Shown: positions 7,376 through 29,098 of the stretch, in pieces
How the letters are laid out: each line of letters begins with the position of its first letter
How positions within the stretch are numbered: position 1 is the stretch's first letter
Assembly (NCBI GenBank): GCA_018714755.1
Contig: DVMY01000082.1
Span: forward strand, 1 to 35,841
Length of the DNA: 35,841 bases
Origin: Candidatus Aphodousia faecigallinarum
GTDB taxonomy: Bacteria; Pseudomonadota; Gammaproteobacteria; Burkholderiales; Burkholderiaceae_F
Reading direction: 5' to 3'
The notes under the pieces: model-generated
Databases searched by the model: none
Seen by the model: only the letters and a program-made list of their open reading frames with translations
Told to the model about the DNA's origin: nothing
Program-made: the position numbers and the translations under genes

Positions 7376-8728
7376 CTATTGTATCAGCCTTATAAAGTCA
7401 TTGGAAAGGGCTAAAGCACCCAATGCCAAAACAATTAACAGTCCCACTTTCTGACCGGCCACGATCACCTTCTCGGGCAATGGCCGACCGGAAACAATTT
7501 CTACCAAATAATACAGGAGGTGACCGCCATCTAACAACGGTATCGGCAGTAAATTCAATAACCCCAAACTGACCGATATCATGGCTAAAAAGGATAAATA
7601 AACCCTCCAACCCATTTGAGCGGTTTTGCCTGCATAGTCGGCGATCGTCACCGGACCGGTTAAATTCTTGGTGCTGGCCTCTCCGGTCAACATTTGCGCG
7701 ACCGCTTTATAGGTCGTCTTGGTGATGGAAACGGTGCGATCCCACCCTGAAACAAGCCCATCAATGGGTCCCTTGGACAACCAAATCAGATCCGGTTTAA
7801 TGCCGACGTTAACACCGATCACCGCTCGCTCAACTTGCGCCCCTTTGCCATCATCGACCATCCGTAACTGGGGTCGCACGGTCACCTCACGGACTTGTCC
7901 GTCCTGATTCTGAAGTGTCAAATGAATCGGTTTTTCCCCTTTTTGGCGAATGTAGTTGACCAACTCTTGAACAGATAAACCGTAACGGGCATCCGCGCTT
8001 AAAACAACATCACCCTCGCGGATACCGGCCGACGCCGCAGGAGAATTCTCTTGTATGTTGAATAAAACCGGATCTCCAAAGCGAATATTAAGTCCTAATT
8101 GTTTGAAAGGACTCTCACTTTCTTCATCAATTTTCAAATTTTTAAGATCAAAAACAACTGTGAATCGTGTGCCGTTGCGATCTAATTGCATGGGCACCGC
8201 TTCATCACCGACATGCTCCAATATGGCCCAATTGAGGTCTTCGATTCCTTCAATTTCATTGTTGCCAAACGTCACTACACGGTCCAAACGCTCAATGTCA
8301 AGTTGAGCGGCTTGCGAATAAGCCACTGGCGTGTCCATGACCGGGCGAATTTCAGGCTGACCGCTCCAAGCCATGATGGCATAAAAAAGAATGGCAAGGA
8401 GAATATTGGCGATAGGGCCGGCAGCCACAATGGCAAACCGTTTGTACACAGACTGGCGATTAAAAGCTCGGTGCGCTTCTGAGGGATCTACCACACACCC
8501 CTCTTGTCGTTCGTCGAGCATGGACACGTAGCCGCCCAAAGGTAAAGCGGAAATGCACCATTCGGTTTTATCCCGTCCTAAACGCTTGCTAAAAAGCTTC
8601 GGACCAAAGCCAAAACTGAAAGTGAGAACCTTCACACCGCAAAGCTTGGCAACCAGAAAATGCCCTAGCTCGTGAAAAGTAATCAGGATACCCAGGGCAA
8701 CAATAAAAGCCACTACTGCCGTTACCAT
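7376..8728 (-). CDS. rseP: Site-2 intramembrane metalloprotease RseP
   Basis: 450 aa, HELGH zinc motif, PDZ region, LLPIPLLDGGHLL. Confidence 0.96.
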   Translation of the reverse strand: MVTAVVAFIVALGILITFHELGHFLVAKLCGVKVLTFSFGFGPKLFSKRLGRDKTEWCISALPLGGYVSMLDERQEGCVVDPSEAHRAFNRQSVYKRFAIVAAGPIANILLAILFYAIMAWSGQPEIRPVMDTPVAYSQAAQLDIERLDRVVTFGNNEIEGIEDLNWAILEHVGDEAVPMQLDRNGTRFTVVFDLKNLKIDEESESPFKQLGLNIRFGDPVLFNIQENSPAASAGIREGDVVLSADARYGLSVQELVNYIRQKGEKPIHLTLQNQDGQVREVTVRPQLRMVDDGKGAQVERAVIGVNVGIKPDLIWLSKGPIDGLVSGWDRTVSITKTTYKAVAQMLTGEASTKNLTGPVTIADYAGKTAQMGWRVYLSFLAMISVSLGLLNLLPIPLLDGGHLLYYLVEIVSGRPLPEKVIVAGQKVGLLIVLALGALALSNDFIRLIQ

Positions 8729-9885
8729 TGAGCGATGACCTCTCGGGTTTTAACTCGAGCCAAATGATCAACGGCGATCACCTCCTGCAAGGATTGGGGC
8801 GCATCAATTACTGATGAGTCCATCATCGTTCGACAGGCTCGCGCGATATCCAAAAACTTAATTTTTCTATCCAAGAAAGCTTCGACCGCAATTTCATTGG
8901 CGGCATTAAGAACAATGCTTGCCGCGCCTCCCATCCGAAGTGCTTCGTACGCGTACCCCAACTGCGGAAAACGCTTGATGTCCGGCGCTTCAAAGGTGAC
9001 ACTGCCCAAAGCGGCAAAATTAACACGTTTGGCGTAACCATCCAAACGATTGGGCCAGCCGAGCGAATAAGCAATGGGGGTTTTCATATCCGGCGATCCC
9101 ATCTGAGCCAAAATACAGCCGTCGGCATATTCAACCATCGAATGAATCAGACTTTGCGGATGGATCACCACATCGATTCAATCAGGCGGGAATCCAAAAA
9201 GCCAGGAAGCTTCGATAACTTCCAACCCCTTATTCATCAGCGTTGCGCTATCGACGCTGATTTTTCTGCCCATCTGCCACGTCGGATGGGCGACTGCGTC
9301 TTCCGGAGTCACATCACTTAAATCAAAACGGTTTCTGAAGGGGCCGCCCGAAGCGGTCAAAATAATTCTCGCCTGACTGCGATCGTGATCATTGGATGAG
9401 GCCAAGCACTGAAAAATCGCATTATGTTCACTATCAACCGGCAAGAGCTCCGCGCCGTGCTCTTTGATGCTTTGCATCAAAAGCGCTCCGCCGCAAACCA
9501 CACTTTCCTTGTTGGCAAGTAACAGCCTTTTACCGGCACGAGCTGCAGAGAAAGTCGGCGCAAGCCCTGCGGCGCCGACAATGGCCAATACAGCCACATC
9601 GACTTCAGGCAAGGCAGCCAGTTTCACCAAATCGTCTTCGCCTGCCCAAACTTCGATATCCGACAATCCCCTCTCGGAAAGACCAGAGGCGAGGTCAGCC
9701 TTTTTAGAGCAATCGGCGATCAGGGCAATCTGGGGATGATGCTTTTCGCACAATGCGACTAAATCCCGCACTCGGCTGTTAGCGGTTAGCGCAAAGACCC
9801 GATAGCGATCCGGATAGTGCGACAAAACGTCAAGGGTCGATCCTCCGATCGACCCGGTCGCACCGAAAATGGCAATGTTTTGCAT
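8722..9885 (-). pseudogene. dxr: 1-deoxy-D-xylulose 5-phosphate reductoisomerase, interrupted by an in-frame TGA
   Basis: ORFs 9178..9885 and 8722..9171 lie in one frame and join as ...[15 protein letters not shown][TGA][21 protein letters not shown]...; DXR motifs IFGATGSIG, ANKES and NKGLEVIEA are intact. Confidence 0.9.
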
Positions 9886-9905: not shown

Positions 9906-10805
9906 TTAACCTAATGTGCCCGAGGCAATTAACACAGAGAGTAAAAAGCCCGCAGGCAAAGTGGGCATCATGGCATCAAGACGATCATAAAAACCGCCAT
10001 GACCCGGAAGTAAATTGCTTGAATCTTTAATGCCGGCCTGACGCTTAAGAGCGCTTTCAAAAAGATCGCCGACGATTGACAAAGACACCAAAACAAAAGC
10101 TACGACAAGCCAAACGATTGTACCCATGCTCTGAACCAAAACACCGGGGATCGTCTTAATTTCAGGGAAGAACCAAGCGAAAATCAGCCCCAAAATCATC
10201 ACGCTTAACATGCCGCCCGCCACTCCTTCCCAACTCTTTTTCGGGCTGATGGCAGGAGACATGCGGTGCTTGCCGAACGCCATGCCGGTAAAGTAAGCCA
10301 TTATGTCGGCGACCCAGACGATCGCCAGCAAGGATATGACCATCGAAATGCCAAATGAGGCGTACATTGCGACAAATCCCAACCAAGCCGCGGGAGGAAA
10401 AAAGACTCCGGTAACCCCCACGACAATTCTATTGACCGGAAGACCCGTCGTTCGAGCGAAGAACACACGAATGGAAATGCCCACCCACAACAAAGTGATC
10501 ACCGCCAGATACATGACAAATAGGCCGGAGAGGTTGGCATAAAGCATCTGAAATTCGCGCGACGCTTCATGGATCATCTGTAAATCGAGGTAGGCCAAGT
10601 AGGTCATTGCTGTCACCGTGCCGCCGACAATAGCCGCCACAACAGCCGAAGCCGCCGAACTTAAGCCCGAGAGTTTGAGCCATTCCCACTGAGCGAGAAT
10701 AAAGGCTATGGCCATGACGCCGGCGAAGGCAACCGGTCCCAACCAATAGGCTCCGATTAAAATCAGCAGTAAAACAATTGCCGTGATCACACGTTGCTTA
10801 AGCAT
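9906..10805 (-). CDS. cdsA: Phosphatidate cytidylyltransferase
   Basis: Multispanning protein with C-terminal SIVGDLFESALKRQAGIKDSSNLLPGHGGFYDRLDA signature. Start at MLKQRVIT; the track runs to 10880. Confidence 0.96.
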   Translation of the reverse strand: MLKQRVITAIVLLLILIGAYWLGPVAFAGVMAIAFILAQWEWLKLSGLSSAASAVVAAIVGGTVTAMTYLAYLDLQMIHEASREFQMLYANLSGLFVMYLAVITLLWVGISIRVFFARTTGLPVNRIVVGVTGVFFPPAAWLGFVAMYASFGISMVISLLAIVWVADIMAYFTGMAFGKHRMSPAISPKKSWEGVAGGMLSVMILGLIFAWFFPEIKTIPGVLVQSMGTIVWLVVAFVLVSLSIVGDLFESALKRQAGIKDSSNLLPGHGGFYDRLDAMMPTLPAGFLLSVLIASGTLG

Positions 10806-10807
10806 CT

Positions 10808-11575
10808 TTACTCTCCATGGCCGAGGGCCTGAACTTGTTCTCCGGTCATTCCAAAGCGGCGCTGACGTCCGGCATACCAATTAAGTGCTTCTTCGAGATC
10901 GGCTTGACCGAAATCAGGCCATAAAGTGGGAGAGGCAAACAGTTCCGCGTAGGCTGCCTGCCACAATATAAAATTACTGATACGCTGCTCGCCGCCGGTC
11001 CGTATCATCAAATCCACGGCGGGGGCCCAATCAAAAGCGAGATTGGCATCGACCAACTCTTCGGTAATCCTTTCCGGGTGAAGCGCCACCGAAGGATCAC
11101 GCAGCAAAATATTACGAAACGCCTGAACAATATCCCAGCGTCCACCGTAGTTAGCGCAAACCGTCAGAACCATCGCATCGCAATGCGCGGTAATCGCTTC
11201 GCTTTGACGGATACTTTCTCGAATCTCTTCGGAAAAGGCGCTCAAGTCTCCGGCAACCCGAAGACGCACGCCATGCTCAAGCATCGCTTGAGCTTCTTTT
11301 TTTAATGCGGTTGCGAAAAGCCGCATCAAAGCGTTCACTTCTTCGGCGGGCCGTTTCCAATTCTCACTGCTAAACGCGAAAAGGGTTAAATAACGAATCC
11401 CTTTTTTTGCAGCGGCTTCAATGACGCGGCGCACACTTTGCACCCCGCGGCGATGACCTTCAGCACGAGGCATGAGACGGCGCTGAGCCCAACGCCCATT
11501 ACCATCCATAATAATGGCGACGTGGCACGGAGCCCCGCCGCCGGATTGATTGGTGTGTTTCATTGCGGCGGTCAA
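10808..11575 (-). CDS. uppS: Isoprenyl (undecaprenyl) diphosphate synthase
   Basis: HVAIIMDGNGRWAQRR, LTLFAFSSENWKRP, DLMIRTGGEQRISNFILWQAAYAE. Start may be ATG at 11563 rather than TTG at 11575. Confidence 0.96.
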   Translation of the reverse strand: MTAAMKHTNQSGGGAPCHVAIIMDGNGRWAQRRLMPRAEGHRRGVQSVRRVIEAAAKKGIRYLTLFAFSSENWKRPAEEVNALMRLFATALKKEAQAMLEHGVRLRVAGDLSAFSEEIRESIRQSEAITAHCDAMVLTVCANYGGRWDIVQAFRNILLRDPSVALHPERITEELVDANLAFDWAPAVDLMIRTGGEQRISNFILWQAAYAELFASPTLWPDFGQADLEEALNWYAGRQRRFGMTGEQVQALGHGE

Positions 11576-25486: not shown

Positions 25487-28400
25487 TTAGGATTGAGGTT
25501 TTTGAGCGTATTGACTCGCTTCTGCGATATCCACACTCACCACTCGGGACACGCCGGGTTCCTTCATGGTCACACCAATCAGTTGATTGGTGTGTTCCAT
25601 CGTGACACGATGGTGGGTAATCATCATGAACTGCGTGTTATCGCTCATTGCACCGACCAATCTAGACAAGCGCTCTTGATTGGCCTCATCCAAAGGTGCG
25701 TCAATTTCATCCAGAAGGCAAAACGGCGCCGGATTGAGCGTGAAAAAGGCAAACACCAAGGCAATAGCCGTCAATGTTAATTCACCGCCGGAGAGCTGCC
25801 TGATGGAATGGTTGTGTTTGCCGGGAGGATTGGCAAACATTTCAATCCCGGCCTCCAGAGCATCTTCACTGGTCATTTCCAAACGCGCGTGACCGCCATT
25901 GAACAACTGGGTGAATTTTTTATTGAACGCCTCGTTGACACGATTAAACGTATCGGTCAACAACGCGCGAGTTTCATGATCAATTTTCTTAATAGCCGCC
26001 TCAATCGTTTCAATGGCCTTTTCCAAATCAGCCACTTCAGCATCAATGCGTTCGACCTCGGTCTGCTGAATCTTTAACTGTTCAAGCGCCGCGTGGTTAA
26101 CCGCACCCAATTGGGCCATGGCTTGCGCAAGACGCTCCACCTCCTGACGAAGCGCGTTTAATTTCGGACGTTCGGTCTCATAACGTGTTCTGAGCTCTTC
26201 TTCATCGAAATTAAATTCTTCGAGACGGCTTTTAACCGTTCCGTACTCGACTTCGTGCTGACCGCGTCTGGTCAATAAATCGCCCATGCGATTTTGTTCG
26301 CGCCGCTTGGCTTCTTCGACTTCGACCAAGGCGACCTCTTGGTTGGTGACCTGCTCTTCTATCAAAGTCAGTGACTGCTTAGCTTCATCCACTTCTAGTT
26401 GCGCCTGCTCTCTTTTTTGAAGCAGCTCTTGAAGTCCGGCTTTTTCGCTATCCTCATCGAGTTCTTCAAGCGAAGCGGTGACATGTTCAATCTTTTCGTT
26501 TAATTCCTGCTGTTCATTTTGGGCCAAAAGCTGCGCGCGCTGAGCCTCCGCTATCCGCTCGGAAAGCGATTTAAGAGTGATCTCAATCTCCCTTTGCGTG
26601 TAGGCGAAAACATTGAAATCCTGCTCGGCTCGAGCTAAATCTTCACGAGCCGCCTCCCAGGCAATACGTGCATCCTCTGATTTTTGCTGACGAGCGGCCA
26701 CCTCTTCGTCCATCAGGCTAAAACGCTCATCGGTCTCTTCAATGGAGGCTGTCGTCTCTTCAAGTTGTTCTTGAGCTTCTTGAATCCACTCGCCCAGCTC
26801 CTCGCTTCGATTTTTATACGCGTCGATAGCTGCCGTCAGTCGTGTAATTTCAAGCGCCAACTCACTTTCCTTAGCGCGAATAGTCTCAAAATGCGTATTC
26901 GTATTTTGCAGACGCTCAGAATAACGCGATACCGTCATGTGGGCTTGACCCAACTGCTGATGAAGCGCCTCAAGCTCATGGCGAAGAGCAAAACTCTCCT
27001 CTTCCAACGTGGTGATCTCTGCTCGTCTGGACAGCAAACCGGTCGAATCATCGGCCCAAAAATTAACGCTCACCTTGTCAATCATGTGACCTTGAGGCGT
27101 TACAAAGTGGCAGCCGGCCGGCAGCAAATGAGCATTGGACAGAGCTTCCTGAACACTGGAAGCAACAAAATAATGAGACAACCAACGAGTCAAAGCCGCA
27201 CGTGTCTCCTCATTTTGAGTGTTGAATTTTAACTTTTCAATCAAACCGCTCAAACCCTCAATCGGCTCGACTGTTTCCGGGGCAATGAGGGTTGAGTAGA
27301 AAGTAAGCTTTGCGGGCGGAGGTATGACTTCAAAAGCCCCGGCCATGGTTAAATTAGAGATTCCCAGTGCGTTGACCCGCTCACGAAGAACCGCTTCCAA
27401 TGCCCTCGTCCACTCTGCCTCCGGCTCCAACTTTTCAAAAAGACGGCTCAGCGACGACAAGCCCTGACGATCAAGCCACTCGGAAAGCTTGTCGCCTGTC
27501 AAAGACTTTTCTTCCAGCTCTTTAAGGGTCGTTAATTTTGCCGTGATAGCGGCAAGTCGCTGCTCTTTTTCATGAATGTCTTTTTGTGTGCCAAAAAGCG
27601 TTTCTCTGGCCTCTTCAAGCATCGCTTGAGACTCTTCTCTTTCAAGTCGAAGCGCTTCACTTTCTTCTTTGACTGCGACAAGCTCTTCTTTTAAAGACTC
27701 GTAGCGCCCCATGTCCGGAGCTTGTGTTTGGGCGGCTTCTCGCTTGAATTTTTCCAACCGCAGGGTCAACTCTTCCTTGGTTCTCGATAATCTTGCCAAC
27801 TCGAGAGACAACGCTTTGGAGTCATTTTCAATGCGCTGAGACTCGGCTTGCAACGCCTCATAAATTTTCTGCCTTTCTTGGGTAAGCTCCAAGGCGCTGT
27901 CTTTCTTTTCTTCAAGCGCAGCTTGACGCTCATTGGCTGTCTCAACCAGCTCTTCTTTTTCGCTTCGCTGCTCGGCAAGAAGATGAATTTTCTCTGCCTG
28001 AGAAGACACTTCTCTTTTTCTCGCCTCCAACATTGAGCGATAACTTTCAAGCTGGGTCTTCAGTAGCGCCCGTCTTTCAACAATCGATCGAATATTGCCC
28101 TCAACGGCTGAAATTTGTTTATCAACATCAGCCAAGGATTGCGTTTTACCGAGCACCACAATATTGGCGTCATTGAGTTTGGCTCTCAGATTCTGTAAAA
28201 GCTCGCGCAACCTGTTCAATTCCGAGTCATTTTTCCCCACCTCGGCTTGCGCCGCGGCAATTTGCGTGTTGACTCGATCAATGGCGTTTTTCGCTTCCAC
28301 CATCTGAGTAAACCACCACAAAGACTCCTTAGCCTGGCGTTGAGCGTTGAGCGTTTGATACTCTTCGGCCACCCGGGCCTCTTCTTCAAGGCGCTTCAAA

Positions 28401-29011
28401 GACTCGCGGCGCGTTACCTGCAGGTCGCTTACTCGTTGCAAATTGGCCCGCGTGCTCGCCAATTTCGATTCGGCCTCCTTGCGGCGCTTTTTGTACTTTG
28501 AGACACCGGCGGCCTCCTCCAAATACTCTCGACGCTTCTCGGGAGAGTCTTTGGCGAATTCGGTAACCATACCCTGACTGATGATGGCGTAAGAGTTTGC
28601 TCCGAGACCGGTGCCCATGAAAAGATCCCGAACGTCGGTCGCGCGCACTTGTTGATTGTTGATTAAGTAAGAGCTGGTGTTATCACGAGTCAGAATGCGT
28701 TTAACAGAGATATCCGCATAGGAGCCCCACGGTCCCTGAAGCGTGGCGTCGCTGTTGTCAAAAACAAGCTCCACCATGGCGCGGCCGGCTTGTTTGCGAT
28801 TATCCGATCCTGCAAAAATGAGCTCACTCATGCTTTTGCAGCGCAAATCGCTCGCCTTTCCCTCTCCCAACGCCCAGCGCACGGCTTCAATCACATTGGA
28901 TTTGCCGCAGCCGTTAGGCCCCACAATCCCAACAATGGAAGAGGGCACTTCAATGACGGTAAGATCAGCGAAAGACTTGAAACCGCTGATGCGAATTTGG
29001 CGCAAACGCAC
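25487..29011 (-). CDS. smc: Chromosome segregation ATPase SMC
   Basis: Walker A GPNGCGKSNVIEAVRWALGE, long coiled coils with hinge, C-terminal LSGGELTLTAIALVFAFF and FCLLDEIDAPLDEAN. GTG start at 29011 (VRLRQIRISGFKSF) is more likely than 29053. Confidence 0.96.
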   Translation of the reverse strand: MRLRQIRISGFKSFADLTVIEVPSSIVGIVGPNGCGKSNVIEAVRWALGEGKASDLRCKSMSELIFAGSDNRKQAGRAMVELVFDNSDATLQGPWGSYADISVKRILTRDNTSSYLINNQQVRATDVRDLFMGTGLGANSYAIISQGMVTEFAKDSPEKRREYLEEAAGVSKYKKRRKEAESKLASTRANLQRVSDLQVTRRESLKRLEEEARVAEEYQTLNAQRQAKESLWWFTQMVEAKNAIDRVNTQIAAAQAEVGKNDSELNRLRELLQNLRAKLNDANIVVLGKTQSLADVDKQISAVEGNIRSIVERRALLKTQLESYRSMLEARKREVSSQAEKIHLLAEQRSEKEELVETANERQAALEEKKDSALELTQERQKIYEALQAESQRIENDSKALSLELARLSRTKEELTLRLEKFKREAAQTQAPDMGRYESLKEELVAVKEESEALRLEREESQAMLEEARETLFGTQKDIHEKEQRLAAITAKLTTLKELEEKSLTGDKLSEWLDRQGLSSLSRLFEKLEPEAEWTRALEAVLRERVNALGISNLTMAGAFEVIPPPAKLTFYSTLIAPETVEPIEGLSGLIEKLKFNTQNEETRAALTRWLSHYFVASSVQEALSNAHLLPAGCHFVTPQGHMIDKVSVNFWADDSTGLLSRRAEITTLEEESFALRHELEALHQQLGQAHMTVSRYSERLQNTNTHFETIRAKESELALEITRLTAAIDAYKNRSEELGEWIQEAQEQLEETTASIEETDERFSLMDEEVAARQQKSEDARIAWEAAREDLARAEQDFNVFAYTQREIEITLKSLSERIAEAQRAQLLAQNEQQELNEKIEHVTASLEELDEDSEKAGLQELLQKREQAQLEVDEAKQSLTLIEEQVTNQEVALVEVEEAKRREQNRMGDLLTRRGQHEVEYGTVKSRLEEFNFDEEELRTRYETERPKLNALRQEVERLAQAMAQLGAVNHAALEQLKIQQTEVERIDAEVADLEKAIETIEAAIKKIDHETRALLTDTFNRVNEAFNKKFTQLFNGGHARLEMTSEDALEAGIEMFANPPGKHNHSIRQLSGGELTLTAIALVFAFFTLNPAPFCLLDEIDAPLDEANQERLSRLVGAMSDNTQFMMITHHRVTMEHTNQLIGVTMKEPGVSRVVSVDIAEASQYAQKPQS

Positions 29012-29052
29012 GAATAGTTCCCAATAAAAAAGAATTTTTGATTTTAAAAACA

Positions 29053-29098
29053 AAAAGGGCGTCCTGTCCAGACGCCTAAGGGAGCTGACGCTCCCTTC
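29053..29098 (-). terminator. Tandem-hairpin terminator after the TRIC-family gene
   Basis: Minus strand AAGGGAGC-GTCA-GCTCCCTT followed by GGCGTC-tggacag-GACGCC-C-TTTTT. Confidence 0.75.

Follow-up and report, generated by a model that had tools for sequence, protein, structure and literature searches.

The dxr (ispC) gene in a stretch of 35,841 nucleotides, here called the window, is interrupted by a single in-frame TGA at codon 236, and this stop is probably absent from the living majority population. It could be an error of the consensus sequence or a minority or dying variant that was caught in a fragmented draft assembly. On this reading the gene is an ordinary dxr, present once in a Parasutterella-like bacterium, in which one arginine codon reads TGA, most simply through a single C-to-T change from CGA. 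As judged from the pathway, DXR is expected to be essential in this host, and the gene is conserved from end to end; the TGA is therefore most likely not part of the majority genome.

The interrupted reading frame and its surroundings

The minus-strand frame extends from 9885 to 8722 and comprises 387 codons with an ATG start and a TAA end. The TGA is its sole internal stop, and no frameshift, no second stop and no gap in comparison to congeners is present, which is in line with an error or a minority variant. The features of this region are as follows.

7376–8728, minus strand: rseP, intact, sharing 7 bases with the end of dxr
8722–9177, minus strand: 3' part of dxr, 151 codons and the terminal TAA, with the remaining catalytic domain and the C-terminal domain
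9178–9180, minus strand: in-frame TGA, codon 236; Arg (CGC, CGT, AGA) in 6/8 and Gln (CAA) in 2/8 congeners
9178–9885, minus strand: 5' part of dxr (ispC), 235 codons and the TGA, with the NADPH-binding domain and the first part of the catalytic domain
9906–10805, minus strand: cdsA, intact, in the same operon upstream of dxr
10808–11575, minus strand: uppS, intact, in the same operon upstream of dxr; its product uses the isoprenoid product

On the minus strand the stop is surrounded by CCG CCT GAT (9183–9181) TGA (9180–9178) ATC (9177–9175) GAT (9174–9172) GTG (9171–9169); rereading of the sequence gave exactly the order of TGA, ATC, GAT and GTG that the initial annotation had described. The Pfam domains PF02670 and PF08436 are found in the first half of the gene and PF13288 in the second. 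Furthermore, the NCBIfam model TIGR00243 matches at positions 1–232 in the first and 240–383 in the second half as colinear, adjacent parts of one DXR, and solved DXR structures (PDB) match residues 3–381 of the frame and so span the stop. These colinear matches bear out the earlier proposal that the two minus-strand ORFs are one dxr split by TGA. The 5' part carries the motifs VDSEHNA, SGGPFR and HPTWQMGRKISVDSATLMNKGLE, and the metal and substrate motifs of DXR are all kept in the frame (VDSEHNA at 150, SGGPFR at 179, the NKGLE region, HPQSLIHS at 242 and DMKTPI at 266). The gene is therefore filed as an interrupted dxr and not as a demonstrated functional enzyme.

The mechanical ORF of the 3' part (8722–9171) opens at GTG 9171, an in-frame codon two codons past the stop. 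A restart at this GTG or nearby might yield a second fragment which assembles with the first one into an active, split enzyme. However, a convincing Shine-Dalgarno sequence is missing upstream of GTG 9171, the cut interrupts the catalytic part and has conserved motifs before and after it, and a split gene occurs in none of 40 relatives; a two-fragment DXR is accordingly regarded as very unlikely.

The draft genome of this gut bacterium is 76 % complete and comprises 1,496,018 bases on 108 contigs, of which the window is number 49. Among named organisms, the closest one found is Parasutterella secunda, with a DXR identity of 85 %. The gene is part of the conserved run frr-uppS-cdsA-dxr-rseP-bamA-skp-lpxD-fabZ-lpxA-lpxB-rnhB, in which every member but dxr is intact, and uppS and dxr, both in this run, lie in one operon as had been stated before. 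Gene names were read from the translations, and the genes up to glnD align over nearly their full length with the neighbouring region of the congeners.

Among the 29 window genes examined, dxr is the sole interrupted one. The absence of any sign of base errors in the other 28 speaks against an error or a minority variant, but the limited quality of the draft (108 contigs, 76 % complete, ispG spread over two contig ends) speaks in its favour. A 322 kb sample of the draft genome, window included, contained one further gene in which a lone in-frame stop was recognised; this survey used open-frame and codon-usage heuristics with the remaining junctions judged by eye and would miss some cases. The gene encodes an integron integrase (TIGR02249) on the minus strand of contig 106 (stretch 40001–53387, at stretch positions 10361–11359). 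Its halves match TIGR02249 colinearly (1–173 and 178–315), and the stop is a TAA at 10802–10804 of that stretch. Integron integrase genes commonly decay, and this stop is therefore neither for nor against base errors. Apparent TGA-split frames on contig 106 are shadows of rpoC. Elsewhere in the window, the mechanical ORF of smc (25487–29053, minus strand) opens at a TTG that precedes the likely true start (MRLRQIRISGFKSF, read from VRLRQ...). The apparent stops in the smc of P. secunda lie upstream of its start and reflect this over-extended window ORF.

Codon 236 in relatives and selection on the frame

An intact dxr in close relatives, a comparison which the initial annotation had recommended, was found throughout: the gene is without internal stop in 40/40 related genomes searched. 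Since every relative examined has an intact dxr, the stop is most likely due to a slip in sequencing, to a variant of a minority strain or to a mutation of very recent date, rather than to new biology. In a search of 399 genomes of the order, which gives the best matches listed and no full count, one other dxr was flagged for a stop (genome G268); this is its own normal terminal TGA and not a second interrupted gene.

At codon 236 the eight congeners have CGC, CGC, CGT, AGA, CGC, CGC, CAA and CAA. With Arg in six and Gln in two of them, the site is variable as had been claimed, and a single C-to-T change from CGA to TGA would be the simplest path to the stop. CGA is an ordinary codon in this host (94 codons in the 29 window genes).

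In comparison to three congeners, dxr has a dN of 0.115–0.137 and a dS near 2 or saturated, alike before and after the stop, and these values indicate strong purifying selection on the frame. This selection, the single copy of the gene and the intact dxr of all 40 relatives argue for an error or a minority variant.

Lineage-specific amino acid changes before the stop amount to 6/31 vs 112/617 in other genes (p = 0.81). After the stop they amount to 9/22 vs 112/617 elsewhere (p = 0.02), a weak excess in a test that was picked after the counts had been seen and to which little weight is given. In overlapping 150-residue stretches of the other genes, nine such changes occur in 1/139 and the same share in 7/139, and the changes after the stop are mostly conservative. 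The excess, absent before the stop, counts to some degree against an error or a minority variant; it could hint at a slightly relaxed downstream constraint and is compatible with a real mutation if this is recent, but not with an old one.

A real loss of DXR would make the gene a fresh pseudogene in a cell that obtains isoprenoid precursors from outside or by another route. The slight post-hoc excess after the stop would agree with this, and the truncated product would be without the rest of the catalytic motifs and the C-terminal domain. However, dxr has no further lesion and a dN far below dS, all relatives (40/40) keep the gene, and the isoprenoid genes described below are retained, so that such a loss appears unlikely.

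Isoprenoid supply and decoding of TGA

In the 76 % complete draft genome a second dxr was found neither by family search nor by DNA search, which answers, as far as this draft extends, a check proposed in the initial annotation. The genes dxs and ispH are present. The ispG gene is also present, in two pieces that lie at contig ends (G000:C17:1-726 and G000:C39:23-355); this split is an assembly break and illustrates, for another gene of the MEP pathway, how fragmented the assembly is. An HMG-CoA reductase, sought as a sign of the mevalonate pathway for which the initial annotation had proposed a search, was not found in the same 76 % complete genome. Roughly one quarter of the genome is not covered by the draft, and these absences are provisional. 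DRL-type reductoisomerases gave no match, and control genomes gave no match either, so this search is uninformative. As dxs, ispG and ispH were found but an HMG-CoA reductase was not, a loss of DXR with a mevalonate bypass is unsupported; the retention of uppS also speaks against loss. The earlier option of a true loss with an alternative isoprenoid supply is thus unsupported, given the MEP genes looked for and found, the HMG-CoA reductase that was not found and the strong purifying selection. The same gene content favours an error or a minority variant.

This organism uses TGA as a normal stop. The codon terminates rnhB, lpxA, a mtnN-like gene and a lyase (4/29 window genes), and RF2 was found in the draft genome, cut by a contig end. 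Among 38 tRNA genes above the cut-off in the 76 % complete genome, none has a UCA anticodon or is otherwise UGA-reading. These observations, which likewise favour an error or a minority variant, uphold the earlier rejection of a genome-wide recoding of TGA, which had been based on the lyase. In two contigs of the source genome (25 and 90) a tRNA-Ala(GGC) is followed by a tRNA-Glu(TTC) in the same arrangement, forming a near-duplicate pair.

A genome-wide or programmed recoding to Trp, Gly or selenocysteine would explain the open frame, and the open frame is all that speaks for it. Against it, TGA is still used as a stop and no UGA-reading tRNA was found in the 76 % complete genome; in addition, a search of nine genomes of the genus gave no tRNA-Sec above the cut-off, and homologues carry Arg or Gln at this site instead of Trp or Cys. 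Matches to tRNA-Sec below the threshold are cross-matches and coincide in the source draft genome with ordinary tRNAs. Recoding is thus extremely improbable, and neither a code change nor a selenoprotein is indicated.

A different case is a real and recent TGA in the strain, with ordinary leaky decoding of UGA by a near-cognate tRNA yielding enough full-length DXR. Cells would survive on less enzyme until reversion. UGA is known as leaky, and its near-cognate decoder in E. coli is tRNA-Trp. Different residues are tolerated at the site among relatives and the frame is conserved past the stop. In-frame stops have been reported as widespread and short-lived in conserved genes of bacteria, with purifying selection often acting on them (PMC7918605). 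On the other hand, the suppressor tRNA considered by the initial annotation was not found among the 38 tRNAs, and in this incomplete genome a missed tRNA is possible. The tRNA-Trp has a normal GAGC D-stem with G24 and a five-pair anticodon stem. The classical UGA suppressor has A24. Anticodon stems of four pairs have been linked to UGA reading (PMC13092985). The tRNA-Trp is thus without the two known UGA-reading changes. Furthermore, the fold of the RNA downstream of the stop is no better than that of shuffled sequences (z = 0.37), the window has no Rfam element, and rseP, bamA and lpx genes lie downstream in the operon, where polarity would raise the cost. Leaky decoding of a recent TGA ranks second among the explanations and is less likely than an error or a minority variant. 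A TGA fixed in the species, with an essential DXR made only by UGA readthrough and a lowered, regulated or tolerated isoprenoid flux, is quite improbable. The TGA is either absent from the true genome or very recent, and perhaps tolerated via ordinary UGA leakiness.

Comparison with DXR proteins and with in-frame stops of other Bacteria

The window gene resembles DXR/IspC (TIGR00243, PF02670/PF08436/PF13288) in its colinear full-length match, its conserved catalytic motifs and its order of NADPH-binding, catalytic and C-terminal domains, and the usual operon neighbours uppS, cdsA, rseP and bamA also lie beside it. It differs in the in-frame TGA at codon 236, by which the frame is not uninterrupted.

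Belinky et al. (2021, PMC7918605) describe in-frame stops in bacterial genes as widespread and mostly short-lived, caution that many raw cases are artefacts, and retained stops common to two or more species to limit these artefacts. Should the stop in dxr prove fixed and be read through, dxr would be a rare example of an essential gene that depends on UGA readthrough. At present the case mainly cautions against taking a single in-frame stop in a draft metagenome assembly for gene loss, even where the gene is essential. Like the stops of Belinky et al. (2021), the dxr TGA is a lone stop within a gene that is otherwise subject to purifying selection, which fits a short-lived variant or an artefact. 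Unlike them, it has been seen in just one genome, and the gene concerned is expected to be essential.
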